Shown in pieces: positions 25,232 through 49,246 of a stretch of 64,000 bases of DNA. This DNA is from Gammaproteobacteria bacterium (lineage in GTDB: Bacteria > Pseudomonadota > Gammaproteobacteria > Eutrophobiales > Eutrophobiaceae). The notes under the pieces are model-generated. The model saw only the letters and a list, made by a program, of their open reading frames with translations, was not told the DNA's origin and searched no databases. Both the position numbers and the translations under genes were made by a program. Every line of letters starts with the position of its first letter. The stretch's first letter is position 1. Where the stretch lies: the NCBI GenBank assembly GCA_030835405.1, contig JAURPG010000021.1:1-64000 (forward strand), given 5' to 3'.

Positions 25232-25315
25232 CCAGGCGGTAACTTTAGATATTCACAGGCACAAGACAATGATAAATCTGTTAATTCAATCGTAGCGTTA
25301 ATTGATATCATTACC

Positions 25316-27250: not shown

Positions 27251-27262
27251 CAATTTTTGTCA
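27248..27262 (+). promoter_or_regulatory. Inverted repeat TGACAA-TTT-TTGTCA, candidate PilR-binding site upstream of pilA
   Basis: A perfect 6-bp inverted repeat with a 3-nt centre begins at the stop codon of the preceding gene. It lies ~75 bp before the -24 element of the pilA sigma-54 promoter, a normal distance for an upstream activator. Its half-sites contain TGTC, the core reported for PilR sites in Pseudomonas. The link to PilR is inference. Confidence 0.45.
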
Positions 27263-27335
27263 GAATCAGACCTTATTAGGTCAAAGACCTGTGGGGCAGA
27301 AATATTAAAGTCATACAATTCAAATAGTTAAATAG

Positions 27336-27351
27336 TGGCATGATTTTTGTA
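27336..27351 (+). promoter_or_regulatory. Sigma-54 promoter of pilA
   Basis: TGGCATGATTTTTGTA matches the -24/-12 consensus TGGCACRNNNNTTGCW at every fixed position except two C-to-T changes; the invariant GG and the -12 G are present at correct spacing. Transcription would start near 27362, giving a leader of ~64 nt. The neighbouring pilSR genes encode the expected activator system. Confidence 0.88.
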
Positions 27352-27425
27352 TATTCTATTGTCATGCATCTGTAGAATTGGTGCTAATAAATTTCCATAT
27401 AACAACAAGACGAGGAGTCTTAATT

Positions 27426-27845
27426 ATGAAACAACAAGGTTTTACATTAATCGAGTTGATGATCGTGGTTGCCATTATCGGTATTCTTGCCGCTGTGGCT
27501 ATACCGTCCTATCAGGATTACACTGCGCGAGCACAGGTAACTGAGGCTGTTTCGCTGACCGCAGCTTTCAAGACAGGACTTGCAGAATATTATTCGGATC
27601 GTGGTACATGGCCTGCTAATATTACCGCAATCGGTTCAACCACATCAGGTAAGTATGTTGATACTGTAGCACTCACAGGTGCTTCTGGTAGCACGATTAC
27701 AGTACAGGCAACCATGAAGTCTACAGGTGTTAATGCAGCCATCCAAGGCAATACCCTGAATCTGGCAACCACTGACGGTGGTCTGCAGTGGGATTGCTCC
27801 GGCGGTACCCTGGATTCCAAGTACAGACCAGGTACCTGTAAGTAA
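27426..27845 (+). CDS. pilA: PilA, major type IV pilin
   Basis: The structural subunit of the type IV pilus. The 139-residue prepilin has a short leader MKQQG cut before Phe6, then the class IVa N-terminal helix [20 protein letters not shown] with Glu5 of the mature protein. Two C-terminal cysteines (in WDCSGG and PGTCK) frame a disulfide loop. The globular part is rich in Ser, Thr and Gly (for example [13 protein letters not shown]), offering many hydroxyl sites for O-glycosylation. The start at 27426 follows GAGGAG at good spacing. It has its own sigma-54 promoter and a strong terminator, so it is a single-gene unit between glycosyltransferase genes on both sides. Confidence 0.96.
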
Positions 27846-27865
27846 GATAGTTTCAATTCTATCTG

Positions 27866-27897
27866 AAAAAAGGCCACTTTATGTGGCCTTTTTTTTT
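27866..27897 (+). terminator. Rho-independent terminator after pilA
   Basis: AAAAAAGGCCAC (27866-27877) and its exact complement GTGGCCTTTTTT (27883-27894) surround a TTTAT loop and are followed by more T residues, nine in a row in total. It lies ~20 nt after the pilA stop and isolates pilA from the next gene. Confidence 0.95.
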
Positions 27898-27920
27898 AAG
27901 TTGTATAATGATCCTGTTTT

Positions 27921-29795
27921 ATGCGTTTAGCCAATAAACAGCTTTTATTTCCTGCTCTGCTTTGTTTGACAATTGTGGTCTACTGGGGAGGATTAGATAG
28001 TCACTTTATCCTTGATGATTTTTATAATCTCCAGGGTCTCTCTGAGGTTGATAAGCATGGTTATCTATACTATATCTTCACAAATGGATTTGCAGGGGCA
28101 GGTGGCAGGCCAATCTCATTATTAAGCTTCGCCGTACAGCATTCCTCTTGGCCAGATTTTCCAATTGATTTCAAAATAATAAATTTAATCATACACCTGA
28201 TTAATGGATTATTAATCTATGGAATATCAGGATATATATGGCGCCTGACAGGCCAAAAAAAAGAAAATGCTTTCTTATTTCAAATAATCGTAGCTGGACT
28301 CTGGTTGCTTCATCCCATTCAGACCAATACCGTTCTGTATACTGTCCAGCGTATGACGCAATTGTCAGCTTTTTTCTGCTTTCTTGGGATGTTAGCTTAT
28401 ATCAAGGCACGAACGAAGTATGAGGTGCCACCATTACGTTGCGCAATATTTATATATTTATCTGTCTTTGGATGTACCTTACTTGCCGTATTGAGCAAGG
28501 AAAACGGCATCCTGTTACCGCTATTTATAATGTTGTTTGAATGGTTGATTTTTACGGGTAGGCAAAAACAACCAGCCATACGAAAACATGTGTTTATTGC
28601 GACCGGGTTACCGATTGTTACATTTCTTGGTTACTTATTCCTCAAGCGAGAAGGCTTGATTCAGGCATTTGATATCAGGGTATTTACAGCTGGCGAACGA
28701 GTTATGACTGAATTCGTGGTATTGATGGATTACATCAGACATATCCTGTTGCCCAGACCTTCAACCTTTTCATTGTTTCATGACAATTATCCTGTATCTA
28801 CCGGGATGTTGGAACCAGGCACTACATTAATGGCATTAGTCCTTTTAGCATCACTAATAATCATATCGTTATATTACAAAAAAAAATATGTAATCCCCGC
28901 GTTTGGAATGTTGTTTTTTTTGACTGGACATGTCCTCGAAGCAGGACCACTAAGTTTGAATTTGTATTTTGAACATAGAAATTATCTTCCATCCATGGGG
29001 ATCATGTTGATTCCGGGCTTTATTGTCGCAAACGGCTGGCAGCATAATAAATTTAAAATATCAAAACTGTTGTTTATTACATTTTATTTAATCTTGCTGA
29101 CAGGCATAACTTATGAGCAGGCCAGGCTTTGGAGCAATTCACTAAATCATCTGACAGTTTGGAGCCAAAATAATCCTGGCTCAAACTCGGCGCAAAATGC
29201 ACTCGCCACAGAATATGTGCGACTACATGATTTTGAAAATGCTGAAGAGATCCTTAATGGCCTGGCTGCTAATAATAAAAATGATATCTATCCATTAATT
29301 CGACTATTTCATGTTCAATCTTGTTATACACAAAACATTGACAGGGCAACGGCGACAGCAAATGCGTTGCTTGACCGATCGGTTAAGGAGCTAAATTATA
29401 ATTTGGCATCACTTTCTGCCTTTGATATTTTGCTATTGGACATTACCAATGGCAATTGTCCTCAAGTGGATACTGAATTATTGGAGGACATATTCACCAT
29501 ACTGATAAATAATCCAGACTCTAATCTTGATAAAGGGATATTATATGAACTGCTTTCAACATTGACGTTTTTTCAGGGTGATATCACAGCATCATTCAGT
29601 ATTTTACGGAAATCAATATCAACGAGATTTGATATTGAGACCAGGTTGAGAGAAATTTATTTATTAGAAATGTTAGGACGATTCGAAGAAAGACAAGATG
29701 CAGTAATACGGTTAGAGCAAGATTTGGCAACAAAACCAATATTACTGGCGGCAATAAAGAATCGATTATCAGTCTTTAAAGAGAATACAAATTAA
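27921..29795 (+). CDS. TMTC-like GT-C membrane protein with C-terminal TPR-like region
   Basis: A 624-residue protein with ~10-12 membrane helices (to ~410) and a helical, TPR-like C-terminal domain containing paired helices such as FENAEEILNGLAANN. The first extracytoplasmic loop has the acidic pair Asp32-Asp33 (LDDFYNL) expected for a GT-C enzyme, followed by GGRPIS and the HPIQTNTVLYTVQRMTQLSA block (131-150) shared with TMTC proteins, which are O-mannosyltransferases in animals, and with many bacterial proteins of unknown function. Its place directly after pilA mirrors the pilin oligosaccharyl- or glycosyltransferases TfpO/TfpW in Pseudomonas, although it is not clearly homologous to them. 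A pilin-modifying role is inference from position. Confidence 0.7.
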   Translation: MRLANKQLLFPALLCLTIVVYWGGLDSHFILDDFYNLQGLSEVDKHGYLYYIFTNGFAGAGGRPISLLSFAVQHSSWPDFPIDFKIINLIIHLINGLLIYGISGYIWRLTGQKKENAFLFQIIVAGLWLLHPIQTNTVLYTVQRMTQLSAFFCFLGMLAYIKARTKYEVPPLRCAIFIYLSVFGCTLLAVLSKENGILLPLFIMLFEWLIFTGRQKQPAIRKHVFIATGLPIVTFLGYLFLKREGLIQAFDIRVFTAGERVMTEFVVLMDYIRHILLPRPSTFSLFHDNYPVSTGMLEPGTTLMALVLLASLIIISLYYKKKYVIPAFGMLFFLTGHVLEAGPLSLNLYFEHRNYLPSMGIMLIPGFIVANGWQHNKFKISKLLFITFYLILLTGITYEQARLWSNSLNHLTVWSQNNPGSNSAQNALATEYVRLHDFENAEEILNGLAANNKNDIYPLIRLFHVQSCYTQNIDRATATANALLDRSVKELNYNLASLSAFDILLLDITNGNCPQVDTELLEDIFTILINNPDSNLDKGILYELLSTLTFFQGDITASFSILRKSISTRFDIETRLREIYLLEMLGRFEERQDAVIRLEQDLATKPILLAAIKNRLSVFKENTN

Positions 29796-29800
29796 AGAAT

Positions 29801-30658
29801 ATGAATAAAAAAATAAGCATTATTCTGCCTGCCAGAAACGAATCAGTTTCTCTTGAAAAGTTGATTCCTGAACTGAAACAAGAGTTTTCTAATATCGAAA
29901 TAATTATTGTAAATGATGGCTCTACAGACCAGACGTTAGAGGTCGCTCAAAAACATGATGTGCAAATTGTTAATCATCCCTATCCCAAGGGTAATGGTGC
30001 TGCGGTTAAGTCCGGTGCCAGGGCAGCCACAGGAGATATTCTTGTGTTTATGGATGCAGATGGCCAGCATCAACCTAAAGAAATACAAAAACTACTGGCA
30101 AAAATGGTTCAGGGTTATGACATGGTGGTTGGCTGTCGTTCAAATAAGGCACAGGCAAATTGGATGAGACTGATTTTAAATAAAGTTTATAATTTTCTCG
30201 CGTCATGGATAACTGCTCAAAAAATTTATGATTTAACGTCGGGCTTCAGGGTCGTTGACGCCATGAAATTCAAAGAGTTCCTGCATTTACTGCCAAATGG
30301 TTTCTCCTATCCAACGACTATTACAATGGCATTTTTTCGTGCCGGTTATAGTATTTCATATACTAATGTTGATGTGCTGCAAAGAACCGGCACAAGTCAT
30401 ATCCGACCGATTAAAGATGGGGTGAGGTTCTTTTTGATTATCTTCAAGGTTGGGACACTATACTCACCATTAAAATTTTTTGTCCCCATAAGTTTTATTG
30501 TGTTTATTACTGGCGTTTCATATTACCTATACACTTTTTTTACCCAGGGAAGGTTTACAAACATGAGTGCCTTGCTGATAACAACATCTCTTTTAATATT
30601 TTTTATTGGAATTGTTTCAGAGCAGCTTACGATGTTGTTTTACAGGGACAAGAAGTAA
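29801..30658 (+). CDS. GT2 glycosyltransferase, polyprenyl-phosphate sugar synthase type
   Basis: A 285-residue GT2 enzyme: ISIILPARNESVSL at the N-terminus, NDGSTDQT, and the metal-binding D85-A-D87 followed by GQHQPKEI. The C-terminal ~70 residues contain two membrane helices. This form is typical of enzymes that transfer a sugar from a nucleotide donor to polyprenyl phosphate. It starts 5 nt after the TMTC-like gene, so the two are probably expressed together, and it could make that enzyme's donor. The sugar is unknown. Confidence 0.82.
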   Translation: MNKKISIILPARNESVSLEKLIPELKQEFSNIEIIIVNDGSTDQTLEVAQKHDVQIVNHPYPKGNGAAVKSGARAATGDILVFMDADGQHQPKEIQKLLAKMVQGYDMVVGCRSNKAQANWMRLILNKVYNFLASWITAQKIYDLTSGFRVVDAMKFKEFLHLLPNGFSYPTTITMAFFRAGYSISYTNVDVLQRTGTSHIRPIKDGVRFFLIIFKVGTLYSPLKFFVPISFIVFITGVSYYLYTFFTQGRFTNMSALLITTSLLIFFIGIVSEQLTMLFYRDKK

Positions 30659-33281: not shown

Positions 33282-33833
33282 ATGTCCTTATTTGATGGAT
33301 TAATTACGTCAAAGATGCGGGTGAGAATACTCATGCGGTTATTTCTTAATCCCGATCAACAGGTATATATCCGCGAACTGGCGGATGAAATGCAGGTCTC
33401 TCCCAGCCAGGTCAGTGATGAACTTAAAAAGTTATCTGAATCAGATCTATTGCATGCAAAAAAAGTAGGACGTCAGATTAATTTCAGTGCGAATCAAGCC
33501 CACCCCCTCTACCCGGAATTACATTCAATGGTTAAAAAGTCGCTTGGGATGGACACGATACTGGATAGTATTCTTGAGCGACTTGGTAATGTTGAAAAGA
33601 TTTTGTTATTAGACGATTACGCCATGGGAAAGGATACAGGAATTATTGATCTCGTACTTGTAGGAAAAATAGATAAGGAAAACCTGGACGACATCGTAAA
33701 TAAAACCGAGAAATACCTGAAGCGTAAAATCAGGACACTAATATTAAGCTTGAATGAATATTTGAAACTTGAAGCAGATTTAAGGAAACGTCCTATGCTG
33801 GAATTATGGAATCAGAATAATATCAGCTCCTGA
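33282..33833 (+). CDS. Winged-helix regulator with a nucleotidyltransferase-like C-terminal domain
   Basis: A 183-residue protein. Residues ~1-75 form an ArsR/MarR-type winged helix (SKMRVRILMRLFLNPDQQ; YIRELADEMQVSPSQVSDEL). Residues ~100-183 resemble a minimal nucleotidyltransferase fold, with the usual G-x-D-S-x-x-D-L region appearing as GKDTGIIDLVLVG. Catalysis looks unlikely; a sensing role is possible. Proteins of this design are common at the head of bacterial O-antigen and exopolysaccharide clusters. A long inverted repeat directly precedes the gene, and the Wzm/Wzt exporter genes follow on the same strand, so it probably controls the island and itself. Ligand unknown. Confidence 0.75.
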   Translation: MSLFDGLITSKMRVRILMRLFLNPDQQVYIRELADEMQVSPSQVSDELKKLSESDLLHAKKVGRQINFSANQAHPLYPELHSMVKKSLGMDTILDSILERLGNVEKILLLDDYAMGKDTGIIDLVLVGKIDKENLDDIVNKTEKYLKRKIRTLILSLNEYLKLEADLRKRPMLELWNQNNISS

Positions 33834-33875: not shown

Positions 33876-34727
33876 ATGAAAAATTCCCCAATCGAAAGAA
33901 AAATATATAGTAATGAACCATTACTAAAAGATCCTAAGCAGCTGTTTAGACAAATGATTATGGATCTGTCAAATTCCAGGGAGCTGGCCTGGAGGTTACT
34001 GGTTCGTAATATTAGCGCCCAATATCGCCAATCTTTGCTGGGGTATATCTGGGCAATATTACCTCCGATTTTTGTAACCGCGATATGGGTATTTTTAAAC
34101 AGTAAAAAAATAATCCAGTTTAGTGTAGTTGATATTCCATATCCAGTTTTTGTATTGACAGGTACTGTGGTATGGCAGTCGTTTGTGGATTCTATTCTGA
34201 TCCCATTAAAATTAATCAATCAATCACAGCCGATGCTGGCAAAAATTAACTTCCCAAGAGAATCACTAATATTGGCAAGTTTGGGTGAAATTTTATTTAA
34301 TCATTTAATACGCTTGTCTGTTTTATTTATATTTCTTTTTTTTTATGAATTTAATATACCCTTAACTACCTGGCTTGCACCAATTGGCATGCTTTCCATA
34401 ATAATTATGGGCATGGCAATAGGTGTGTTATTAACACCACTGGGAATGTTATATGACGATGTTGAACGAGGAGTCCAGTTAGGAGTGCAGGCCTGGTTTT
34501 TTTTGACACCTGTAATCTATTCAGTTCCAGATACATCATCCCATTTAGTATTATTCAATCCCATTGGCCCATTACTTGTCACAACGCGTGAATTCTTAAC
34601 AACAGGTCAGTTTCAATATATGCCTGCCTTCATGATTTATAGTATTTTGGGATTAATTCTTTTATTCATTGGTTGGGTAATATTCAGATTATCGCTACCC
34701 CATATACTATCCAGAATAAGTGCATAG
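33876..34727 (+). CDS. wzm: Wzm-type ABC transporter permease for polysaccharide export
   Basis: A 283-residue ABC-2 type permease with six membrane helices and the N-terminal amphipathic region before RNISAQYRQSLLGYIWAILP, which is typical of O-antigen and capsule exporters (Wzm, RfbA, TagG). It exports a finished lipid-linked glycan to the periplasm together with the ATPase encoded 9 nt downstream. The presence of this pair, with no Wzx or Wzy gene in the cluster, indicates the ABC-dependent pathway. Confidence 0.9.
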   Translation: MKNSPIERKIYSNEPLLKDPKQLFRQMIMDLSNSRELAWRLLVRNISAQYRQSLLGYIWAILPPIFVTAIWVFLNSKKIIQFSVVDIPYPVFVLTGTVVWQSFVDSILIPLKLINQSQPMLAKINFPRESLILASLGEILFNHLIRLSVLFIFLFFYEFNIPLTTWLAPIGMLSIIIMGMAIGVLLTPLGMLYDDVERGVQLGVQAWFFLTPVIYSVPDTSSHLVLFNPIGPLLVTTREFLTTGQFQYMPAFMIYSILGLILLFIGWVIFRLSLPHILSRISA

Positions 34728-34736
34728 ATATTGCCC

Positions 34737-35942
34737 ATGACAAAAGATACTCTAATATCAGTTGAAGACTTATCTAAAAAGTTTTGCCGCTCTTTAAAAC
34801 ATTCACTTTGGTACGGAATACAGGATATATCTCATGAATTAGTAAAATCTTCAGATCAAAACCTGATTTTGAGAGATGAAGAGTTCTGGGTATTGGAAAA
34901 TATTTCATTTGAGTTGAGGCGCGGTGAATGTCTGGGTTTAATAGGGGCAAATGGTGCTGGCAAGAGCACGTTATTAAAAATATTAAATGGGTTGATAAAA
35001 CCAGATGTCGGGAAAATTACAATATGGGGAAATGTTGGAGCTTTAATTGAGTTGGGCTCAGGCATTAATCCAATACTGACTGGTAGGGAAAATATATATA
35101 TAAACGGTGCAGTGCTTGGGCTTGGTAAAAAAGAAGTCGATGAAAAATTAGATTCTATAATTGAATTCGCAGAACTAAAGGACTCCATAGATGCCCCGGT
35201 GAAAAATTATTCTACCGGTATGAAAGTCAGGTTGGGTTTTGCCATAGCGGCACAGATTAAACCGGATATATTAATTATTGACGAAGTCCTGTCTGTCGGT
35301 GATGTGGGATTTCAAGCGAAGTGTTTTAATCATATATGTGACCTTCTGGATTCAACAGCCATTATCCTGGTGTCACATTCAATGCAACAGATTTCCAGAT
35401 TATGCACACACTCTCTGCATTTACATAGTGGCAAGATTAAATATCTTGGTGATGATGTAGGTGCATCTGTGGCAAGTTATTACAAGCATTCGCACTTAAA
35501 TCAGTCCATATTTGAATTTGGAGAAGGGCAGGCAGAGATTCACCGGGTGGACATAGAAAGTGATCAGACACTAAACCCATCAGTCATTAATTCCGGGGAA
35601 TCATTAAAGATACATGTGACCTTCAGCGCAGACAGTGACATAAAAAACCTATCTATAGGGTTTGTATTTTCATCTGAGGGACTGGTAGGCGTGTTGTCAT
35701 GTTTATCCAATCTGGATGGATTTCAAATTCAAAATAACGGAAAACAAATGACAATAACCGCAAATCTAGGTGCTATTAGGCTAAACCCAGGAACATATTG
35801 GTTAAGAGTGGGGATATTGGCAGATAATTTTGGAAAAATACTGGTACGCAAAGACAATATAAAAAGTTTCATTGTAAAAGGCCCCATCGTTCAATGGGCT
35901 CCGGTTCAATGGCGAGCAGATTGGAAAATTAATCCCACCTAA
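34737..35942 (+). CDS. wzt: Wzt-type ABC transporter ATPase with carbohydrate-binding domain
   Basis: A 401-residue ATPase partner of the permease. Walker A GANGAGKST is at 70-78, the signature YSTGMKVRLG near 165, and Walker B ILIIDEVLSVGD near 185. The extra ~140 C-terminal residues have the beta-rich character of the Wzt C-terminal domain, which in characterised O-antigen exporters recognises a modification at the non-reducing end of the glycan. The ATG at 34737 is preferred to the TTG at 34731. A terminal modification is therefore expected, and the methyl- and sulfotransferase genes downstream are candidates to make it. Confidence 0.9.
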   Translation: MTKDTLISVEDLSKKFCRSLKHSLWYGIQDISHELVKSSDQNLILRDEEFWVLENISFELRRGECLGLIGANGAGKSTLLKILNGLIKPDVGKITIWGNVGALIELGSGINPILTGRENIYINGAVLGLGKKEVDEKLDSIIEFAELKDSIDAPVKNYSTGMKVRLGFAIAAQIKPDILIIDEVLSVGDVGFQAKCFNHICDLLDSTAIILVSHSMQQISRLCTHSLHLHSGKIKYLGDDVGASVASYYKHSHLNQSIFEFGEGQAEIHRVDIESDQTLNPSVINSGESLKIHVTFSADSDIKNLSIGFVFSSEGLVGVLSCLSNLDGFQIQNNGKQMTITANLGAIRLNPGTYWLRVGILADNFGKILVRKDNIKSFIVKGPIVQWAPVQWRADWKINPT

Positions 35943-35952
35943 AAGAAACTTT

Positions 35953-36972
35953 ATGATGAATCCAATTAAAGCCCGAACTGACTCGCTAGACAAGAAGAAA
36001 TTCTTTATACATATCGGCACCCCAAAGACCGGGTCGACATCACTGGAAAAATTTTTGTATGAAAACAGGGGCGTATTAAAGACCCAAGGATATCTGTATC
36101 CGGAAGAAACCATCAGGGGTTATGGTCATCACGATATAGCTTATCTGGCGAGCGGTACATACCCGAGGTGGGCAACCCCACAGCAAAGATCATTATCGGA
36201 ATTAATAAATAGTCTTAGATGTGAAACAGGTAACCATAATGATAAAAAGATTATTCTGAGCAGTGAGATATTTTATTTGTTAGCCAATCCCAATGATGTG
36301 GCAAAAGTAATCGAAAGTCTTGGGTTCCAAATACAAGATGTTCAGACTATTGTCTATCTGAGAAGACAGGATGAAGCGCATCAGTCATGGTATAACCAAA
36401 AGGTCAAGGCCCAGGGATACACAGGAAATATTCATGATTCAATTAAGGAATCCTGGGAATTATGGGATTACCAGAAATCTCTTGGGCCCTGGAGTAAGAC
36501 TTTTGGAAAAGAAAACATAATTCTTCGAGCATATGAAACCGAATCATTAATTGGGCAGGATATACGCAGTGATTTTATTCATTGTCTGGGTATTGCCATA
36601 GATAAGCTTGTGTTTTCAGAAGAGAATATAAATTCCCGGTTATGCCGTGATTTGCTTGAATTTCAAAGACATATAAATACATTGCCGATTTCGTTTATCA
36701 AAAAACGAAAATATATGAACAAGTTAATTGAGCTGACAAATGCTTCGAAAGATAACGATAAACTTTCAGATACACCACTACTATCGATAAAGCAGAGAAA
36801 AGAGATCATGAATGCTTATGATGTGACAAATAAATATGTTGCCAGGGAGTATATGAATACAGATCAATTATTTGAATCTTCAATACGCGGTGAAGTACAA
36901 GATGTGGAAGTTGAGACATCATTATCATTAAAAAAACTGTCTTATATTTTATATTGGATATTATTCAGGTAA
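35953..36972 (+). CDS. PAPS-dependent sulfotransferase family protein (first)
   Basis: A 339-residue protein with the sulfotransferase P-loop that binds the 5'-phosphosulfate, FIHIGTPKTGSTSLEKFL (P-loop residues 23-30), and a 3'-phosphate-binding strand IVYLRRQDEAHQSWYNQ around 133-149. Members transfer sulfate from PAPS to glycans or lipids. It directly follows wzt (10 nt). Bacterial sulfotransferases in polysaccharide clusters are uncommon but known. The acceptor cannot be deduced. No PAPS-synthesis gene is in the window, so the donor must come from general sulfate assimilation. Confidence 0.78.
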   Translation: MMNPIKARTDSLDKKKFFIHIGTPKTGSTSLEKFLYENRGVLKTQGYLYPEETIRGYGHHDIAYLASGTYPRWATPQQRSLSELINSLRCETGNHNDKKIILSSEIFYLLANPNDVAKVIESLGFQIQDVQTIVYLRRQDEAHQSWYNQKVKAQGYTGNIHDSIKESWELWDYQKSLGPWSKTFGKENIILRAYETESLIGQDIRSDFIHCLGIAIDKLVFSEENINSRLCRDLLEFQRHINTLPISFIKKRKYMNKLIELTNASKDNDKLSDTPLLSIKQRKEIMNAYDVTNKYVAREYMNTDQLFESSIRGEVQDVEVETSLSLKKLSYILYWILFR

Positions 36973-36987
36973 AGACAAGGGCAATAT

Positions 36988-37698
36988 ATGCATGATTATA
37001 AACAGGATGAGGCCAGATTAACCTTCTATAAGACCCATCCGGAACAATGTGACCCTGATGATTTATGGGGGCAGGTAATGCGGACGGTAAATGGTAAGCC
37101 TGTGCCAGAAGAACAAATTAATTTAATTATTGAATTTGTTGTCAGATCTTTAAATCTACATAAAGAAGATGTATTACTGGATTTGTGCTGTGGTAATGGG
37201 GCCTTGACTGACAGGTTATTTAACTTTTGCGCAGGAGGCGTGGGAATTGATTTCTCAGAGCCATTAATAAGTATCGCTAATAAAAAATTTCATAAGGAAA
37301 ATCAACGGGATTATTTCTTAAGTGATATTGAAGACTTTCTGAATAAAGAAAATACCTGTCATCAATATACAAAAGCGATTTGTTATGGGTCATTTATGTA
37401 TTTGACAGAAAAAAAAGCTTTAAACGTCCTCAAGCTATTGTGTGAGAAATTTACTGGTGTTGAAAAGTTTCTAATTGGAAACCTCCCGGACAAAAACAAG
37501 ATTGAAACATTTGCCAAAAACAGGGGAGTGGAAAAAATAATTGCAGATGATCCTGCTGAACCATTTGGTATCTGGAGGACAAAAAGGGAATTTTCAAAAA
37601 TGGCAAATATGGCAGGATGGAATGTGACATTCAGTGAAATGCCGGAAAATTTTTATTCAGCTGGTTACCGGTATGATGCATTACTAATCAGGCAGTAG
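36988..37698 (+). CDS. Class I SAM-dependent methyltransferase
   Basis: A 236-residue soluble methyltransferase with the SAM-binding motif LLDLCCGNGALTDRLF near residue 60 and a following acidic motif GIDFSE. It lies between the two sulfotransferase genes with short spacers (15 and 8 nt), which places it in the glycan-modification set. In ABC-dependent O-antigen systems a terminal methyl group often stops chain growth and is read by the Wzt C-terminal domain; that role is possible here but unproved. Confidence 0.78.
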   Translation: MHDYKQDEARLTFYKTHPEQCDPDDLWGQVMRTVNGKPVPEEQINLIIEFVVRSLNLHKEDVLLDLCCGNGALTDRLFNFCAGGVGIDFSEPLISIANKKFHKENQRDYFLSDIEDFLNKENTCHQYTKAICYGSFMYLTEKKALNVLKLLCEKFTGVEKFLIGNLPDKNKIETFAKNRGVEKIIADDPAEPFGIWRTKREFSKMANMAGWNVTFSEMPENFYSAGYRYDALLIRQ

Positions 37699-37706
37699 GA
37701 TATTCA

Positions 37707-38513
37707 ATGAACGTAATCTGGTTTAGTGGGATGCCAAGATCGGGGACAAACTGGGTTTCCCAATTCTTTGCGGCTAGTCCGCAGATCAGAGTGAAGTTTT
37801 GTCCGTTATTTTCATATAAATTTAAAAACTCCATGTCCGAGTCAGACGATAAAAATTCCTGGAGACAATTTTTTAATAATGTATATGCAACCCCCGACGA
37901 ATTTATGGACCAGTTATATCTTTCCAGAGAAGGATTGCTGCCAGTCTTTAATGATAAAGAGAATACTCCTTCAACCTTGTTGATTAAATCTAATCGATTT
38001 CATAATTTAAGTTATAAAGTAATGAAGAAAATACCTGAAATGAAAATGGTCGGAATTGTACGTGATCCTGTTGCGGCAATAGGATCATGGCTTAATAATC
38101 CAATTGAGTTTCCAGCGGATGCAAATCCTATTGAAGAGTGGCGTACCGGGGCGTGTAGAAAAACCGGACCAGAAGAATATTGGGGCTTCAATGATTGGAT
38201 GGAGGTAACAAGGTTGTATATGCAAATGGAAAAGGAATTCTCCGAGAGATTTATGCTTGTCCGTTATGAGGAGATTGTGGGAAATCCACATCGGATTGCG
38301 AGGGAAATATTTGAAAAAATGGACTTAAAATATACTCAGCATGTCGATGACTTTATTGATAGTTCTATGTCTACCCATGTTGAACATCCACGTTCTGTAT
38401 TCAGAAAAAACCATGATGTAAAAAAATGGGGAAAAAGCTTAAGTAAAGATATAGTCAATAATATTTATAAGGAAATTAGAGGCACAAGTCTGGAAAGGTT
38501 TATTTATGAATAA
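37707..38513 (+). CDS. PAPS-dependent sulfotransferase family protein (second)
   Basis: A 268-residue protein with the 5'-phosphosulfate loop SGMPRSGTNW (7-16) and the 3'-phosphate site MVGIVRDPVAAIGSWLNN (~114-131), including the expected Arg119 and a following Ser. It is only distantly related to the first sulfotransferase in this cluster, so the two are unlikely to be recent duplicates and may sulfate different positions. It overlaps the next gene by 8 nt through an ATGAATAA junction. Confidence 0.8.
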   Translation: MNVIWFSGMPRSGTNWVSQFFAASPQIRVKFCPLFSYKFKNSMSESDDKNSWRQFFNNVYATPDEFMDQLYLSREGLLPVFNDKENTPSTLLIKSNRFHNLSYKVMKKIPEMKMVGIVRDPVAAIGSWLNNPIEFPADANPIEEWRTGACRKTGPEEYWGFNDWMEVTRLYMQMEKEFSERFMLVRYEEIVGNPHRIAREIFEKMDLKYTQHVDDFIDSSMSTHVEHPRSVFRKNHDVKKWGKSLSKDIVNNIYKEIRGTSLERFIYE

Positions 38514-39753
38514 ACCACTAAAAAACAGAATTGAAGACCTGGCAATATTTTCAGGGAAGAAATTATTTGATAAGCCCAGGCCAATAGGCCAACTATGGTC
38601 TCTAGACAGAAAAATATTTCATGAATTGGTGAATCAGATATATGAGAACCATCGTATTACTAATAATGGGGAACTCATAAAGACATTAGAATCAGAATTG
38701 AGGGAATTACATTCCTGTAACTATGTTATTGCCTTTGCGAACGCAAGTATCGCGATAGCTGCGCTACTGAAAATAATAAATAAAGATTACTATTCACAAA
38801 AAAATGGTGAAGTAATCTTGCCCGCTTTTACATATGTCGGTCTTCCGCATTTGATCAGGTGGGCCGGTTTGAAGCCCATATTTGTCGATGTCGATGAACA
38901 AAACCATACCTTGTCACCTGAGGCCAGTCTGGAAAAAATAAATAGTAATACGGCTGCGATATTACCCGTGCATCAGGTGAACAGGCCAGTCAATATCGAT
39001 GAATTTTCAGCTATTTCCAGTAAATTTGATATTCCAATTATTTATGATGCAGTTCATGGTGTGTTTTGTAGGGTTGACAATGTTCCTGTCGGTGGCTTTG
39101 GTCTGGCAGAAGTATTTAGTCTGCATGCAACAAAATTAATTAACGGTTTTGAGGGTGGCTACGTAACGACGAATGATAAAAGTCTTAAAGAAAAATTAAG
39201 GACAATCAGAAATTTTGGGATTATATCAGGTGATAATATTGACAGTATCGGTATTAATGGAAAATTGAATGAGATACATGCTGCATCAGCACTGTCGTCG
39301 CTAAATAGCTCAAAAGAGATTTTATCTGGGAACAAAAGAAGGTTTAATAAATACACTGAAGTATTCTCAAAAATACCTGGTTTAAGTTGGGTAGACTATG
39401 AAGAACATCCTGAAACCGGGGGGGTATATGAATATAACTATGAATTTTTTCTCCTGGCAGTACCTGAATCCTGGCCACTAGATCGCGACACATTGGTCAG
39501 GATGCTTAGAGATGAGGGTGCATTGGCCCGAGGTTACTATTCGCCTCCTGTCCACCTTAGTTCTCATTTTCCATCAGGACAGACAGTACCATCTTTACCT
39601 ATAACCGAAATGTTATCCAAAAGATATATCCAAATGCCTGTGGGAGAGTTGGTGAATGAGGACGATATAGTTGCCCTGGGAGATTGGTTCTTATTTGTTT
39701 ATAAGCATTCAGAACAAATAAGTAAAAAACTTGGCGGATATACAAATGAATAA
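38506..39753 (+). CDS. DegT/DnrJ/EryC1-family PLP aminotransferase (first)
   Basis: A 415-residue fold-type I enzyme of the sugar-aminotransferase family. The PLP lysine is Lys210 (in FSLHATKLINGFEGG), and Asp181 in IIYDAVHG should contact the pyridine nitrogen. Such enzymes aminate keto-sugar nucleotides, for example toward perosamine or 4-amino-4,6-dideoxyglucose. No dehydratase that would make the keto-sugar lies in the window. It is followed, with an 8-nt overlap, by a second family member with moderate similarity. Confidence 0.85.
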   Translation: MNKPLKNRIEDLAIFSGKKLFDKPRPIGQLWSLDRKIFHELVNQIYENHRITNNGELIKTLESELRELHSCNYVIAFANASIAIAALLKIINKDYYSQKNGEVILPAFTYVGLPHLIRWAGLKPIFVDVDEQNHTLSPEASLEKINSNTAAILPVHQVNRPVNIDEFSAISSKFDIPIIYDAVHGVFCRVDNVPVGGFGLAEVFSLHATKLINGFEGGYVTTNDKSLKEKLRTIRNFGIISGDNIDSIGINGKLNEIHAASALSSLNSSKEILSGNKRRFNKYTEVFSKIPGLSWVDYEEHPETGGVYEYNYEFFLLAVPESWPLDRDTLVRMLRDEGALARGYYSPPVHLSSHFPSGQTVPSLPITEMLSKRYIQMPVGELVNEDDIVALGDWFLFVYKHSEQISKKLGGYTNE

Positions 39754-40948
39754 TCTATTTTCTCTTTTGAGCGATAAAAAACCTGAATTTGATGCCCCTT
39801 TACACGTAGGGCAGTTATATTTACCTGAGAGAAAAGCATTTGATGCGGCATTCAATGCTGTATTCGACCGGCATTATTTTACTAACCATGGACCACTGGT
39901 GGAATCTCTTGACCTGGAAATTGCAGAATATCTGGGTGTAAATCATGCGGTGTGTATGACCAGCGGGACCATAGCCATCATGGTTGCCTGTAAGGCGCTA
40001 GATTTAAAGGGTACTGTTATTGTTCCCTCATTCACCTTTTGTGCCACTGTACAGGCGTTATTATGGTCGGGATTGAAACCTATATTTTGCGATGTAGATA
40101 ACGAATCTCATAATATCGATACAGACAAGATTCAGGCCTTGATTCGGGAAGATACATGCGCAATTGTAGGTGTCCATTTATGGGGGCGACCATGCGATGT
40201 AAATTTACTTCAGTCAATCGCAGATAAAAATAATCTTAAATTGATTTTTGATGCATGTCATGCGTTTGGCGTTACATCAGATAATATAAAGGTTGGAAAT
40301 TTCGGTGATCTTGAGATTTTTTCATTTCATGCAACCAAGATTCTCAATGCTGCAGAAGGTGGTTGTGTTACCACAAACTCACCTGATATTGCAGCAAGGT
40401 TAAAGACTATCCGTAATTTCCATTCATCAGATGTTGATGCTGATGTCTCGCTTAGAATCAATGGCAAGATGTCTGAGGCACAAGCTGCGATGGCCCAGCT
40501 TTCTTTACAAAACCTGGAAATGAACATAGCAAATAATAAAAGTCAGTGGAATACTTATTATAATGAATTAAGTTCTATTGCCGGACTGAAAATAATTATT
40601 TTAGATAATTCGCAAGCACAAAATTACCAGTATTTTGTATGCGAAATTATAGAAGAAGACTTTGGGCTTAGTCGAGACCAGCTTCTGGAATTATTAGTTG
40701 CTGAAAACATCCAGGCAAGAAAATATTTTAATCCACCTGCACATGCTCTTAATGCAATAGACGATTTTACTATTTGGACAAGTTTACCTATTACGGAAAA
40801 GCTTTGCGGACGTGTGCTGCAGTTACCATTAGGCTCATCAGGCAGCATCAAGAATGCTAAACGTGTATCAAATATTATAAGGTTGGCTAATGAGAATTCA
40901 AATCATATCAAACAATACTTTTTAGCTGAGAATACAAAAGATTTTTAA
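39746..40948 (+). CDS. DegT/DnrJ/EryC1-family PLP aminotransferase (second)
   Basis: A 400-residue paralogue of the preceding gene, with the PLP lysine Lys198 (FSFHATKILNAAEGG), Asp169 (FDACHAFG) and the family N-terminus VGQLYLPERKAF. The start is the ATG at 39746, preceded by GGCGGA, which overlaps the previous stop in the same ATGAATAA arrangement used at the junction before it. Two tandem aminotransferases suggest a diamino sugar or two different amino sugars, unless one has moved to another reaction; the substrate is not evident. Confidence 0.86.
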   Translation: MNNLFSLLSDKKPEFDAPLHVGQLYLPERKAFDAAFNAVFDRHYFTNHGPLVESLDLEIAEYLGVNHAVCMTSGTIAIMVACKALDLKGTVIVPSFTFCATVQALLWSGLKPIFCDVDNESHNIDTDKIQALIREDTCAIVGVHLWGRPCDVNLLQSIADKNNLKLIFDACHAFGVTSDNIKVGNFGDLEIFSFHATKILNAAEGGCVTTNSPDIAARLKTIRNFHSSDVDADVSLRINGKMSEAQAAMAQLSLQNLEMNIANNKSQWNTYYNELSSIAGLKIIILDNSQAQNYQYFVCEIIEEDFGLSRDQLLELLVAENIQARKYFNPPAHALNAIDDFTIWTSLPITEKLCGRVLQLPLGSSGSIKNAKRVSNIIRLANENSNHIKQYFLAENTKDF

Positions 40949-40950
40949 AT

Positions 40951-41658
40951 ATGCTGCAATCAATTGCAATAATGCAACCGTATTATTTTCCGTATATTGG
41001 ATATTTCAAACTTATCCATAAAACAGACTTATGGGTGGCTTTCGATATTGTGCAATACAATAGTAAGTCATGGATGAATAGAAATAGGGTTCTACACCCC
41101 AAACAGGGTTGGCAATATATAAACGTTCCAGTCAATAAGGCAGGGCATGGGACAAGCATAAATAAAATCAAGGTAGTGAATAAGCAGCAAGCCTTAAGCA
41201 AGGTGCTAGGACAAATTAATCATTACAAAAAATATGCGCCATATTTTAATCAAGTGATTAAAGTGATAGAGAAAGGTTTTAATGAAACCAGTTCAGATTT
41301 ATTGCTGGATCTTAATTTATCAATTATGTCTTCTGTATGCAGATATTTAGGGATAAGTTTTAATTGGAAACTTTGTTCAGATCTGAAAATTGATAATGCA
41401 AAAATAAAGCATGCAGGTGATTGGGCATTGGAGATATCAGATAAGCTTGGCGCAAAAGAATATTTTAATCTCCCAGGAGGTGTGAATCTATTTAACCATG
41501 AAGACTGGAGGCAAAGAAATATTGGGCTCAATTTTATTGAAACAGATTTGATGGAATATAGCTGTAAACCTTATGTTTTTGAGGAGAATCTCTCAATAAT
41601 TGATGTGTTAATGTGGAATGATCCGAATAGCTTGCTTGAGTATTTGGACGAAAAATAA
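40951..41658 (+). CDS. WbqC-like family protein
   Basis: A 235-residue member of the WbqC family, recognised from the N-terminal pattern IAIMQPYYFPYIGYFKLI, the aromatic-rich WMNRNRV stretch and the DWALEISDKLGAKEYFN region. WbqC proteins occur in many O-antigen clusters beside DegT-type aminotransferases and are suspected of helping to modify an amino sugar, but no reaction is firmly assigned. It starts 2 nt after the second aminotransferase, which fits joint action on the same sugar. Confidence 0.82.
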   Translation: MLQSIAIMQPYYFPYIGYFKLIHKTDLWVAFDIVQYNSKSWMNRNRVLHPKQGWQYINVPVNKAGHGTSINKIKVVNKQQALSKVLGQINHYKKYAPYFNQVIKVIEKGFNETSSDLLLDLNLSIMSSVCRYLGISFNWKLCSDLKIDNAKIKHAGDWALEISDKLGAKEYFNLPGGVNLFNHEDWRQRNIGLNFIETDLMEYSCKPYVFEENLSIIDVLMWNDPNSLLEYLDEK

Positions 41659-41663: not shown

Positions 41664-42641
41664 ATGAATATATTTTCAGGAAAAAGTAAACAGCCAAAAC
41701 CAGTTGTCTCGGTTTGTATTCAGACATATCAACACGGTGATTATATCTCACAGGCGTTAGATAGTGTTCTTGAGCAGGAATGTGAATTTCCGTATGAAAT
41801 ACTACTTGGTGAAGATGGATCTACTGACGGAACGCGGGAAATTTGTAATGAATATGCCCAGAAGTATCCGGATGTGATCAGGTTGTTTTTAAATGACCGA
41901 AGTAATGTGATTTATATCGATGGGTACCCGACTGGCAGATGGAATTTTCTTAATAATGTGAAACACGCTAATGGTAAATACATTGCACTTTTATCAGGAG
42001 ATGATTACTGGCAGGCAAATGACAAGTTGCAGCAACAAATCGATATGCTTGAAAATAATGATAAATATTCCATGTGTTTTCACGATGTGAATATTTTGCA
42101 TGATGATGGTTCTCTTGAAGAATTTCCGGATTTGTCAGGCCATACAGAAATTAACCTTGAAGATTTATTTGATCAATGGTTTATCCCAACATGCAGCATG
42201 GTTTTTAGAAACAATATTAATTTTCCAGAATGGTTTACGGATGTGGCAAGTGGCGATATTGCACTACATTTTTTACTAGCAGAACAAGGTAAATTTTACT
42301 ATTTGAAAAATAATATGGGGGTGTACAGAAAGCATGCAGGAGGAGTGTCCAGTACTCATAATCATTATAAAAAAGCAGTGGACATGAGCAGGCTATATCA
42401 TTATCTAGATCTGCATTTTAATAGAAAATATAGAGATAAGATTAATAACGCCATCAAGGGAGAAATTTATCTTCATATTGAACAACCACATCTTCTGGAA
42501 AAGGAAATTACCAAAGCCAAGGTTGATGCGAAAATAAAATCCATGACAAGAGTGTTAAATCACCCGTTAATAAAACCAATAGTTCTTTTATTAAAAAAAA
42601 TTAAAAGGGACAAGAGATTTGGCGTTTATGAAGAAAATTAA
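41664..42641 (+). CDS. GT2 family glycosyltransferase
   Basis: A 325-residue cytoplasmic GT-A enzyme: VSVCIQTYQHGDYISQALDS, GEDGSTDGT, and the metal-binding region ending ALLSGDDYW (GDD in place of DXD). No membrane helices, so probably a polymer-assembly transferase acting at the cytoplasmic membrane face. It is co-directional with the cluster at 5 nt from the WbqC gene. Donor and linkage are unknown. Confidence 0.85.
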   Translation: MNIFSGKSKQPKPVVSVCIQTYQHGDYISQALDSVLEQECEFPYEILLGEDGSTDGTREICNEYAQKYPDVIRLFLNDRSNVIYIDGYPTGRWNFLNNVKHANGKYIALLSGDDYWQANDKLQQQIDMLENNDKYSMCFHDVNILHDDGSLEEFPDLSGHTEINLEDLFDQWFIPTCSMVFRNNINFPEWFTDVASGDIALHFLLAEQGKFYYLKNNMGVYRKHAGGVSSTHNHYKKAVDMSRLYHYLDLHFNRKYRDKINNAIKGEIYLHIEQPHLLEKEITKAKVDAKIKSMTRVLNHPLIKPIVLLLKKIKRDKRFGVYEEN

Positions 42642-44002: not shown

Positions 44003-46021
44003 GTGCAAAAAATTCAAACAACAATCTTTTCATTTGATGTTTTTGATACTGTCATAACACGTACAGTTGCCAATCCCATTGATATGTTTGCACATATTAA
44101 AAATAGAATGGGCCAAATACAGGGGGTTCCTGAAAAATTAATAAATAGTTTTTCACGCATTAGAAGGCATGAAGAGATTGCTGCACGCAGAAAATCCTCA
44201 AATGAAGATATTTCAATAAAAGATATTTATAACGAGATACAGGAAAACTACAACCTTGAAAAAGATGTGGTTGACAGCCTTATCTCTCTGGAAATACAGG
44301 TGGAACGCGAATTTATTAAACCAATTTCACCTACTATAGAAGAGATTAGCCGAATGCGTGCCCGGGGAAGTGAGATAATTTTTATATCTGACATGTATCT
44401 ACCGCAAGAATTTATTGAGTCTATATTATTAGATTTTGGGGCATTTAATCCAGGCGACAGGCTTTACCTTTCCGGACAGATTGGACTATCCAAGGCAACG
44501 GGTAGTCTTTATCGGTATATATTAAATGAGAGGGATTTACGCCCGGACCAATTGGTTCATTATGGTGATAATAAGAAATCAGATATAGACATTCCCCAAT
44601 CTTTTGGTATCAAGATTAATTCGAGCTTGCAATTAAATCTAAATGCAAGTTTGTATGAAAATCTGATGTTATCATCAAAGTGTGATATGCCAGGATTAAA
44701 GTCTGTGTTAGTTGGGGCTAGTCATGCTGCCAGACTTGGGATACCGCATGAAAATGAAAGACAACAAATAATTGGAGACATCTCAGCCAATATCGCCGCA
44801 CCTGCATTTTACTCTTATATTTGGTGGGTATTGTTAAAAGCCAAAAGTAGAGGCATCAAATCACTATATTTTATGTCTAGAGATGGCCATATTCTTCTGC
44901 AAATTGCGAGAATAATAGAAGCAAAATTAAATACCGGGATCAGCTTAAAATATTTATATGTCTCTCGTGAATCCCTGCTACTAGCTTCAATTGCAAATGG
45001 TCTGGAGTCAGACTATATATGGCTGATAACCTACTTGCCAAAAATATCCATCAATAATGTTTGCGAACTATTGGATACTACAACTGAGGAATTAACGCAT
45101 ATTCTTGTTGATTATGGCTTTAAGGAAGAGGATTGGGACATTGAAATTGATCATAAACTCGCTGACTTATTCTGGGATTTCTTTAAAGATCAACGAACAC
45201 AAGAAATAATAAACAAGAATAACCAAACCCGTTTTGACAATACCTTAGGTTATCTAAGACAGGAAGGACTGACTGAAAATAATAATTTTGCTGTGGTGGA
45301 TATAGGATGGCAATGCCATAGTCAAATGGCGCTGAGCAGTATCCTGGATGGGGGAGGACAAAGACCATCTAACGGAGTATCCGGGTTTTATTTTGGTTTT
45401 GGCCGGAAAGTATATGTATATAAAAACGATAGTGTTTTTTCATTTTCTGCTGATTTAGATATTAGAAAAGTATTTTATCATTACAGCATTTTTGAAGTAT
45501 TTGCATCAGCTACACACGGCAAGACGGTGGGGTATGCGCGCGAAGGTGATAACTATGTGCCAGTCTTAAACAAAGAAGAAAACAGTAACGCTATAGCCTG
45601 GGGTTTGGATATTCAGGAACGGACAATTCTGAAATTTAGTGAGTATATATCTGAACATCTTGAACATTCTAATTTCAATTATCAGACAATAAAATCAATA
45701 TTAAAACCGATAATTTTTCGGTTTACACAAAAGCCAACGCCAGTGGAAGCAGATATCTATGGTGATTTTCTATTTTCCTGTTATTTACAAGAATCCGGGT
45801 ATGATCCTATCGCACCAAAACTAAGCAGGAAAGAATTCTGGGAAAAATTAATTGCCGGAGACAGGGTCATTAGTCTCTGGTTTTCCGGCACCTTCTCAAG
45901 ATCCAACCTGAAAATTGAAGGTATGATTTGGAATATCAATATATTTCGCAGGGTATTGCAATCTTATATCAGAGTCAGATACGGTCGACAAAAGAAATAT
46001 TTTTTTAACATGGATATTTGA
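44003..46021 (+). CDS. COG5610-type HAD-superfamily protein
   Basis: A 672-residue protein. Residues ~8-220 form a HAD domain: nucleophile region FDVFDTVITR (Asp12, Asp15), IFISDMYLP, and the C-terminal acid motif HYGDNKKSDI. The rest includes a second segment ISANIAAPAFYSYIWWVLLK followed by SLYFMSRDGHILLQIA, a mark of this family, which is recurrent in O-antigen and capsule clusters. Activity is not established; a phosphatase acting on a sugar or lipid carrier is possible. Translation starts at GTG 44003, 5 nt after the preceding gene. Confidence 0.75.
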   Translation: MQKIQTTIFSFDVFDTVITRTVANPIDMFAHIKNRMGQIQGVPEKLINSFSRIRRHEEIAARRKSSNEDISIKDIYNEIQENYNLEKDVVDSLISLEIQVEREFIKPISPTIEEISRMRARGSEIIFISDMYLPQEFIESILLDFGAFNPGDRLYLSGQIGLSKATGSLYRYILNERDLRPDQLVHYGDNKKSDIDIPQSFGIKINSSLQLNLNASLYENLMLSSKCDMPGLKSVLVGASHAARLGIPHENERQQIIGDISANIAAPAFYSYIWWVLLKAKSRGIKSLYFMSRDGHILLQIARIIEAKLNTGISLKYLYVSRESLLLASIANGLESDYIWLITYLPKISINNVCELLDTTTEELTHILVDYGFKEEDWDIEIDHKLADLFWDFFKDQRTQEIINKNNQTRFDNTLGYLRQEGLTENNNFAVVDIGWQCHSQMALSSILDGGGQRPSNGVSGFYFGFGRKVYVYKNDSVFSFSADLDIRKVFYHYSIFEVFASATHGKTVGYAREGDNYVPVLNKEENSNAIAWGLDIQERTILKFSEYISEHLEHSNFNYQTIKSILKPIIFRFTQKPTPVEADIYGDFLFSCYLQESGYDPIAPKLSRKEFWEKLIAGDRVISLWFSGTFSRSNLKIEGMIWNINIFRRVLQSYIRVRYGRQKKYFFNMDI

Positions 46022-46074: not shown

Positions 46075-47058
46075 TTGAAGACAATATATAGTCCGGTTTT
46101 TTCAGGTAGTGGTGTAGTGGTACTACATCAATCACTATCCAGTTTAATAGATGATTATCAATTGGATATTTTTTCATCTAAATGGCAGTTCGCACCATTT
46201 GTATTACCGTTTATTAGCAAGCCTGACAATTGTGATGTAATCCATACAATCCCTGACTACGCCCCATATTTTTACAGACCTGGTGTCAAGCTTGTCGTGA
46301 CATTTCATAATTATGTACTAGACAGTTATATGCTCAAAAATTCCAGTATGTTGCAGCGGATTCACTATAAAACTGATTTGCGCTGGAATATATTAAAATC
46401 GCTCGAGATTGCAGATGTCGTAACTGCTGTGAGCCAAGCTACAGCAGAATTAATAAAGCGTGATTTGGACTACGATGCTGATATTAAGGTTATAAACAAT
46501 GGTGTAGATACATCAATCTATAATCCAGCAAAACACATTGAAAATTGTCATAGAGTAAAAGTTTTTTTCAGTGGTAATTTATCTGCTAGAAAAGGCGCAC
46601 CATTACTGCCGTTTATTGCAGATAAGTTAAAAGAGAATATCACTATTTACTATACTTCTGGTTTAAATAAAAAATCCCAATTACCTGGGCATCCCAGGCT
46701 TGAATGCCTGGGGATGATAAATAACAAGGACATGGCATCTCTATATCGTACGATGGACATATTATTATTACCATCTATAAGAGAAGGGATGAATCTTTCC
46801 ATACTTGAAGCAATGGCGAGTGGCTTGCCTGTCATAACTTCAAACTGCTCATCTATGCCAGAGCAAATCATTGATGGGGATGGAGGTTATCTTTGTGAAC
46901 CGGGTGATGTCGAAGAGTTTGCCGAAAAGATAAATTATTTGGCAGATCGCCCTGATAAAAGAGTGAGTATGGGCAGCTATAATAAAAACCGTGTTATAGA
47001 TAATTTCTCTATAAAAACGATGGTGCAAGGCTATAAATCACTATTTAATGCCTTATAG
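46075..47058 (+). CDS. GT4 family glycosyltransferase
   Basis: A 327-residue GT-B enzyme, somewhat short because the N-terminal domain is compact. It contains VVTFHNYVLDS, the VINNGVDTSIYNP motif and the donor-site block PSIREGMNLSILEAMASGLP. The start is TTG 46075, supported by AGGG eight bases upstream and by the lack of an in-frame ATG. It is the last transferase of the plus-strand run before a 98-bp gap. Confidence 0.84.
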   Translation: MKTIYSPVFSGSGVVVLHQSLSSLIDDYQLDIFSSKWQFAPFVLPFISKPDNCDVIHTIPDYAPYFYRPGVKLVVTFHNYVLDSYMLKNSSMLQRIHYKTDLRWNILKSLEIADVVTAVSQATAELIKRDLDYDADIKVINNGVDTSIYNPAKHIENCHRVKVFFSGNLSARKGAPLLPFIADKLKENITIYYTSGLNKKSQLPGHPRLECLGMINNKDMASLYRTMDILLLPSIREGMNLSILEAMASGLPVITSNCSSMPEQIIDGDGGYLCEPGDVEEFAEKINYLADRPDKRVSMGSYNKNRVIDNFSIKTMVQGYKSLFNAL

Positions 47059-48466: not shown

Positions 48467-49246
48467 TCATTCTACAGAGTTGATGATCTTAAATAAATCT
48501 GCATGAATATCCGGGTTGCCACAAAGTATATTGCCACTTGAAAGAAATGATTCGTTATTAGCCACGCCAGTTACGATTCCACCAGCCTCCTGAACCAAAA
48601 GTGACCCTGCCGCTATGTCCCATTGCTTGAGTCCATATTCCCAGTATCCATCCAATCTTCCACAGGCCACATAGGCCAGGTCCAATGAAGCTGCACCTGC
48701 CCTTCGAATACCTGCGGTTACTGGAAAAATAGCTCGAAATGTTTTAAGAAAGGTTTCCATGTCAAGGCTTTCCCCGAAAGGAAACCCGGTCCCCAATAAA
48801 GCACCATTTAAATGCTTTCTTTTGCTGACACGTATTTTTCTATTATCGAGCAGGGCACCTTCTCCTCTTGTGGCGGTAAATAGTTCCTGTTTTAAGGGGT
48901 CATAAACTATTGCGTGGTTAATTTGGTCTTTTTGTTTAACGGCAATGGATATTGCAAATTGAGGGAATCCATGCAGAAAATTTGTTGTTCCGTCGAGGGG
49001 ATCAATTATCCATTGAAATTCACCTTCTCCGTGTAAGCCACTTTCTTCTGCAATTATCCCGTGGTCCGGATAAGAACTATGAATTGTATCAATGATAATT
49101 CTTTCGGAGTTTCTATCAATTTCTGATACAAAATCATTTAGTTTTTTTTCGTGAATCTGGATATCAGATGCCCTGTCCAGATTACGGATAATATAATCAC
49201 CTGCTTTTCTTGCAGCGCGTATACCTATAGTAATGAGTGGATGCAT
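48467..49246 (-). CDS. suhB: SuhB, inositol-1-monophosphatase family protein
   Basis: A 259-residue Mg-dependent phosphatase of the IMPase family; in E. coli SuhB also works with Nus factors in rRNA transcription. Metal ligands are visible: Glu67/Glu68 (IIAEES), the DPLDGTTN motif at 82-89, and the C-terminal WDIAAGSLLVQEAGG. Intact and of normal length. In relatives suhB is divergent from trmJ; here both are present in that orientation but a GT2 gene lies between them. Confidence 0.93.
   Translation of the reverse strand: MHPLITIGIRAARKAGDYIIRNLDRASDIQIHEKKLNDFVSEIDRNSERIIIDTIHSSYPDHGIIAEESGLHGEGEFQWIIDPLDGTTNFLHGFPQFAISIAVKQKDQINHAIVYDPLKQELFTATRGEGALLDNRKIRVSKRKHLNGALLGTGFPFGESLDMETFLKTFRAIFPVTAGIRRAGAASLDLAYVACGRLDGYWEYGLKQWDIAAGSLLVQEAGGIVTGVANNESFLSSGNILCGNPDIHADLFKIINSVE

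Follow-up and report, generated by a model that had tools for sequence, protein, structure and literature searches.

Two predicted sulfotransferases of different families in a candidate mobile surface-glycan cassette of a gammaproteobacterium

Sulfated bacterial glycans are thought to be uncommon, and a 2026 paper states that they have been reported only in cyanobacteria (PMC13390465). This statement is contradicted by published capsules of Vibrio and Cobetia. Sulfated capsule structures are reported as solved for Vibrio sp. KMM 8419 (PMC11641403) and Cobetia marina KMM 1449 (PMC11766843), and PAPS genes and sulfotransferases are described in their ABC-transporter polysaccharide loci. A sequence-only reading of the DNA studied here had called such glycans rarely described, which is fair but dated now that these capsules are published with their gene clusters. 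Both differ from the present locus in being Kps-type capsules with sulfated rhamnose (PMC11641403, PMC11766843), and the terms methyltransferase and WbqC have zero occurrences in the Vibrio paper (PMC11641403).

Three further systems are close in gene content. The wps-1 surface-glycan cluster of Actinoplanes missouriensis is described as carrying a pair of sulfotransferases from different families, one of them heparan-sulfate-like, together with a SAM methyltransferase, and both sulfotransferase genes are reported to be needed for normal sporangia (PMC13390465). It is a precedent for this combination in one cluster but, compared by description, differs in its Wzx/Wzy pathway, its actinomycete host and the predicted status of its sulfation (PMC13390465). 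The wbsalmo cluster of Aeromonas salmonicida encodes an ABC-dependent O-antigen and has a sulfotransferase-domain ORF directly 3' of Wzt, but this is a single sulfotransferase-like ORF of 216 aa, given as hypothetical in Table 2 (PMC4483657). The viosamine island of Pseudomonas syringae is listed as vioA, vioM, vioB, vioT, vioS, vioR and acp, and its aminotransferase, acylating enzyme and methyltransferase are described as yielding a terminal modified 4-amino sugar (PMC3927599). That list contains no sulfotransferase and one aminotransferase, whereas the present locus has a second DegT and a WbqC protein; according to the same source, VioB attaches the acyl group that VioS/VioR/ACP produce, and the target is flagellin.

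Gene map and the two sulfotransferases

The window, a stretch of 64,000 nucleotides analysed as a whole, comes from a genome of 2.8 Mb in 136 contigs (100% complete, 1.56% contamination). Three complete plus-strand genes exactly fill positions 35953-38513 and encode proteins of 339 aa (ST1), 236 aa (the methyltransferase, MT) and 268 aa (ST2). The features around them are as follows.

33282-33833, + strand: winged-helix regulator upstream of Wzm; 50% identity to the gene at the same position in a Desulfobacteraceae locus (L019)
33876-34727, + strand: Wzm-like ABC-2 permease preceding Wzt; weak NCBIfam match to galactan Wzm, none in Pfam
34731-35942, + strand: Wzt, with an ATPase domain (ABC_tran E 4.5e-23) and a C-terminal domain for carbohydrate binding (Wzt_C E 2.7e-15)
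35953-36972, + strand: ST1, predicted sulfotransferase with a heparan-sulfate-sulfotransferase-like fold; no matching Pfam or NCBIfam sulfotransferase model
36988-37698, + strand: MT, class I SAM methyltransferase; Methyltransf_25 E 6.1e-8, found in 14/14 relatives
37707-38513, + strand: ST2, Sulfotransfer_3 family, predicted TPST-like fold; optional cassette member, 6/14 relatives
38506-39753, + strand: DegT1 aminotransferase; nearest solved structure 2po3
39731-40948, + strand: DegT2, second aminotransferase; nearest solved structure 2po3
40951-41658, + strand: WbqC family protein, last core cassette gene; WbqC E 2.9e-64, 14/14 relatives
41664-42641, + strand: GT2 glycosyltransferase; its best-match relatives (45-51% identity) adjoin the cassette in L019, L020 and L021
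42723-43997, + strand: GT4 glycosyltransferase, by family match
44003-46021, + strand: HAD-like N-terminal domain (weak matches) with a large region assigned to no family
46075-47058, + strand: GT4 glycosyltransferase, by family match
47157-48419, + strand: radical SAM protein, by family match; possible cluster end

The end of ST2 overlaps DegT1 by 8 bases. The permease match is far and below the cut-off (E 6.8e-6), and the Wzm call is weaker than the Wzt call. The G+C content is 34-38% across 34-48 kb versus 43-46% in the first 8 kb of the window, which fits an acquired segment but is no proof of one. In scans for promoters and terminators, the region had site numbers no higher than those of shuffles. 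The gene at 48467-49246 was considered as a CysQ-like helper and rejected, as inositol monophosphatase scores higher (296.7 versus 93.8 bits, both below cut-off).

ST1 carries a 5'-phosphosulfate loop (H20-I-G-T-P-K-T-G-S-T29) and 3'-phosphate residues (R137...S145). In an alignment of 15 orthologues that includes the ST1 of the window, P24-K25-T26-G27-(S/T)-T29, R137 and S145 are kept in 15/15 sequences, with S or T at position 28. E105 is likewise invariant (15/15) and is a candidate for the catalytic base. ST1 itself matched no sulfotransferase model in Pfam (E 5) or NCBIfam (E 0.1), and among its orthologues there are weak Pfam matches to Sulfotransfer_3 (5/15) and Sulfotransfer_1 (3/15), with a best E of 0.0026. 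Searched against the PDB as a single sequence, it gave chance-level matches only (best E 0.084), and the ST1 profile gave 3rnl as its sole match (E 0.012). The AlphaFold model (pLDDT 84.8) also has 3rnl as its best VIA match (Z 14.8, rmsd 3.9, 224 aligned). All of the first 15 VIA rows are sulfotransferases (Z 14.8 to 13.7), and those after 3rnl are heparan-sulfate 3-O- and N-sulfotransferases only; below row 15, Z falls to 10.4 at SULT7A1. The predicted fold resembles the 3-O-sulfotransferase 1t8t (Z 14.6) and the N-sulfotransferase 1nst (Z 14.5), but at 16% and 13% identity, respectively. Foldseek gave a weaker result, with 4 matches at E <= 0.001 and a best value of 1.7e-5.

ST2 has its own 5'-phosphosulfate loop (G8-M-P-R-S-G-T14) and 3'-phosphate residues (R119...S127), and its PAPS residues are conserved in 8/8 aligned sequences. 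It passes the cut-off of Pfam Sulfotransfer_3 (59.1 bits versus 27, E 1e-15). Its model (pLDDT 83.5) is nearest to human TPST1 and TPST2, with a first match at Z 16.8, rmsd 3.0 and 212 aligned residues. The loop pattern matched 2 of the 53 ORFs in the window, namely ST1 and ST2, where 0.005 would be expected in composition-shuffled proteins. Taken together, conserved residues and predicted folds make a convincing case that ST1 and ST2 are both PAPS-dependent P-loop sulfotransferases.

The profiles of ST1 and ST2 align with a probability of 4% (E 0.01, 97 columns), R137 pairing with R119 and S145 with S127, and no relationship between the two is detectable at profile level. The sequence-only reading had proposed two sulfotransferases with PAPS sites and little else in common, a methyltransferase between them and a Wzt with a carbohydrate-binding tail; each of these points holds.

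On plasmids, 17 of the 20 listed ST1 matches (of 100 records) are labelled hypothetical; phages yielded no ST1 relative at E 1e-5. In genomes with ST1 relatives labelled hypothetical, a cassette with such an unmodelled sulfotransferase would make a prediction of sulfation possible.

The cassette, its relatives and their exporters

The cassette spans 35953-41658 and comprises ST1, MT, the optional ST2, DegT1, DegT2 and WbqC. With three aligned ST1 sequences as the query, 84,980 species genomes were scanned and 14 loci were returned; this number is a lower bound because the scan used two peptide patterns only. Relatives of MT, DegT1, DegT2 and WbqC adjoin ST1 in all 14, and the hosts belong to the Alpha-, Beta- and Gammaproteobacteria, Desulfobacterota, Acidimicrobiales and Eremiobacterota. 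ST2 is present in six (L019, L020, L021, L024, L030 and L031). A late single gain of ST2 finds no support: the tree, which is poorly resolved, needs about four changes, and about one-fifth of shuffles reach this figure. Variations occur in L026, where the WbqC gene ends at the contig edge and DegT2 is shortened, in L027, where WbqC is inverted, and in L030-L032, where ST1 is divergent; in L032, MT is placed after WbqC.

The cassette genes co-vary. Mantel correlations of ST1 distances are r 0.87 with MT, 0.77 with DegT1, 0.52 with DegT2 and 0.88 with WbqC (p <= 0.001), and over 15 gene pairs r ranges from 0.52 to 0.98 (p <= 0.0015, uncorrected). The values for DegT2 are the least secure because the DegT2 distances of L026 and L032 rest on cross-matches to DegT1. 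Such co-variation is the expectation for joint inheritance, although shared ancestry of the organisms could cause part of it. The tree of ST1, MT and DegT1 places Rhizobium, Azospirillum and the betaproteobacterium Pararobbsia together with full support, a grouping that points to cassette transfer between classes. A looser cassette, flanked by transposase genes, occurs on a plasmid of Desulfolutivibrio sulfodismutans (L034, 6876-12667) and contains a far ST1-like gene, a diverged DegT, MT, ST2 and WbqC. Within the class of the source organism, MT at E 1e-20 was found in its own genome alone among 274, and ST1 at E < 1e-70 in 2 of 57 other relatives (L025 and L029, counted once). No description of the cassette was found in the open-access literature, the scope of a search outside which most subscription papers lie.

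The surroundings vary more than the cassette. A Wzm/Wzt pair adjoins it in 2/14 relatives. One is L019, a Desulfobacteraceae MAG with the gene order of the window (regulator, Wzm, Wzt, ST1, MT, ST2, DegT1, DegT2, WbqC, GT2), the two Wzm proteins sharing only 21% identity; the other is L028, whose ABC-2 permease is paired with an ATPase giving no Wzt_C match. The L020 contig starts within another ABC-transporter gene, a Polysacc_synt_2 gene precedes the cassette in L029 and, by eye, in L025, and several other loci have glycosyltransferases only, or unrelated genes, around it. The sequence-only reading had placed the sulfotransferases in an ABC-dependent O-antigen cluster. An ABC-exported surface-glycan cluster is retained here, but a tie of the cassette to an ABC O-antigen is not supported, given the rarity of Wzm/Wzt beside the cassette. 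The single Wzy_C/ligase-type protein encoded elsewhere in the genome is not specific for attachment to lipid A-core.

The source genome has a second ABC-type polysaccharide cluster (G000:C52; L042, L043) with a Wzm/Wzt_C pair, RmlB and APS kinase, the last two <1 kb apart, which perhaps makes a second sulfated glycan. By eye, gene names included, the flank of this cluster resembles the uvrB/malic-enzyme flank adjoining the cassette in two relatives, a likeness that suggests the cassette has switched loci.

For sulfate supply, the genome encodes ATP sulfurylase (PF01747) and APS kinase; a CysD-type ATP sulfurylase had no match in it. In L032, 2.8 kb separate the gene of a CysN-APS kinase fusion from the closest gene of the cassette. 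APS kinase is found in 14/14 cassette genomes (one weak, E 4.1e-6) versus 11/14 control genomes, and its presence is therefore unspecific and permissive only.

A proposed sugar product and the competing readings

We propose, with somewhat better than even confidence, that a mobile cassette, with ST1 and ST2 as its sulfating arm, makes one unusual sugar that decorates a surface glycan. The most likely product is a 4-amino-4,6-dideoxy sugar that is N-substituted, methylated and sulfated. RmlB, whose gene lies elsewhere in the genome, would provide dTDP-4-keto-6-deoxyglucose. DegT1 and DegT2 both have 2po3, listed as a 4-dehydrase, as their best solved-structure match (E 3.7e-66 and 1.5e-80, respectively), which we take to be DesI of the desosamine pathway. 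For both, the best NCBIfam model is dTDP-4-dehydro-6-deoxyglucose aminotransferase (DesI equivalog), below cut-off. By this relatedness, they may add the amino group or groups, probably giving a 4-amino-4,6-dideoxy sugar. WbqC, possibly an amino acid-moving enzyme, could then substitute the amino group, as its gene company suggests. For WbqC, no characterised homologue or solved-structure relative was found, no functional study was apparent from the titles in a literature search (several matches were unrelated acronyms), and the literature on glycine transfer or N-acetylglycine in O-antigens yielded nothing of use. MT, a methyltransferase by family, would methylate the sugar. ST1, and ST2 where present, would transfer sulfate to it from PAPS, supplied by ATP sulfurylase and APS kinase. 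The finished residue would decorate or cap the surface glycan of the host cluster, which here is presumably exported by Wzm/Wzt.

In this light the cassette resembles a sulfated version of the viosamine island, an analogy that we adopt as a working model; Pfam placed no cassette gene in the VioB-type acetyltransferase or VioS/VioR/ACP families. Against the model, there are two aminotransferases, one beyond the need of a 4-amino sugar, and the core cassette is without a dehydratase. No structure was found for any glycan that depends on the cassette. Because the cassette is portable and ST2 optional, sulfation is most likely on one special sugar rather than on the polymer at large. The earlier suggestion of a glycan sulfated at two positions or at its chain end thus keeps its two different sulfotransferases but is changed to this single sugar. 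A broader claim is possible but doubtful: that the mobile cassette gives unrelated bacteria the same sulfated and methylated N-substituted 4-amino sugar as a portable surface tag for varied exporters, that ST1 founds a bacterial glycan sulfotransferase family missed by standard annotation, and that ST2 serves as an exchangeable module for a second sulfation.

It is unlikely that ST1 and ST2 instead sulfate two positions of an ABC-exported O-antigen repeat, with the other cassette genes supplying repeat-unit sugars. The cluster does have Wzm/Wzt and glycosyltransferases, L019 keeps the gene order from regulator through GT2, and the capsules of Vibrio and Cobetia are described with sulfated repeat units (PMC11641403, PMC11766843), but the cassette travels apart from Wzm/Wzt in most relatives. 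The genome of Azospirillum doebereinerae GSF71 also carries the cassette (L022), without ST2. In a paper on the synthesis of the repeat, the O-antigen repeat of A. doebereinerae is given as three rhamnoses, one glucosamine and two O-acetyls (PMC7372237). Since the repeat as described has no sulfate or 4-amino sugar, the cassette product there would be a minor end group, part of another glycan or not made, and sulfate need not sit in the repeat unit, although that cassette lacks ST2. The presence of the cassette in named, cultured and sequenced strains such as this one and Azoarcus sp. L1K30, in which ST2 is present, makes its chemistry directly testable.

That the cassette product ends the chain, with the Wzt tail recognising the sulfated end, is improbable. 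A Wzt_C domain adjoins ST1 in both the window and L019, and in Aeromonas salmonicida a sulfotransferase-domain ORF directly follows Wzt (PMC4483657). Compared with each other, the Wzt tails of the window and of L019 are no more alike than shuffles (z 0.0), yet the second Wzt of the source genome resembles both the window tail (z 7.0) and the L019 tail (z 9.2). In E. coli O8/O9a, methyl or phosphate caps terminate the chain and are read by the Wzt tail. Some tail likeness would be expected here were the cassette product the Wzt signal, and the idea that Wzt recognises this product is not supported; the mismatch is not decisive because such tails may diverge fast. The exporter ATPase of L028, which Wzt_C does not match, and the majority of loci, which have no Wzm/Wzt beside the cassette, also argue against this reading. 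Improbable too is an acceptor other than a polysaccharide, either a small molecule or a protein such as the pilin, whose gene is 8 kb upstream. In its favour, tyrosylprotein sulfotransferases are the closest match of the ST2 model, the region 22126-30658 contains a pilin gene and genes for glycosyltransferase-like membrane proteins, and an NRPS-like protein is encoded 5.6 kb from ST1 in L030. Against it, the closest matches of the ST1 model are glycan sulfotransferases, the company of WbqC, DegT and glycosyltransferases typifies surface-glycan loci, other genes separate the pilin region from the cassette, and no pilin was seen by eye beside the cassette in other loci.

Other observations in the window and in relatives

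ST1-like stretches also occur in larger proteins. In G038:C17:130253-135546 (L004, L009, L012 and L013), open frames of 1137 and 763 aa each contain two tandem ST1-like matches and are possible multi-domain sulfotransferases. On a Qingshengfaniella plasmid (L036, 1-2060 and 5655-9440), ST1-like stretches lie within large proteins annotated as glycosyltransferases, which are possibly fused transferase-sulfotransferases.

The region 22126-30658 of the window encodes a GT2 carrying a GtrA domain, a pair of neighbouring TMEM260-like (PF11028) membrane proteins, a type IV pilin, a 624 aa protein that matched nothing in Pfam and a further GT2; it may be an island for the glycosylation of pilin or of proteins. 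On the minus strand at 10824-16794, two neighbouring proteins of ~990 aa are alike by eye and have many hydrophobic segments, and their C-terminal part resembles, also by eye, spermidine synthase-like proteins.
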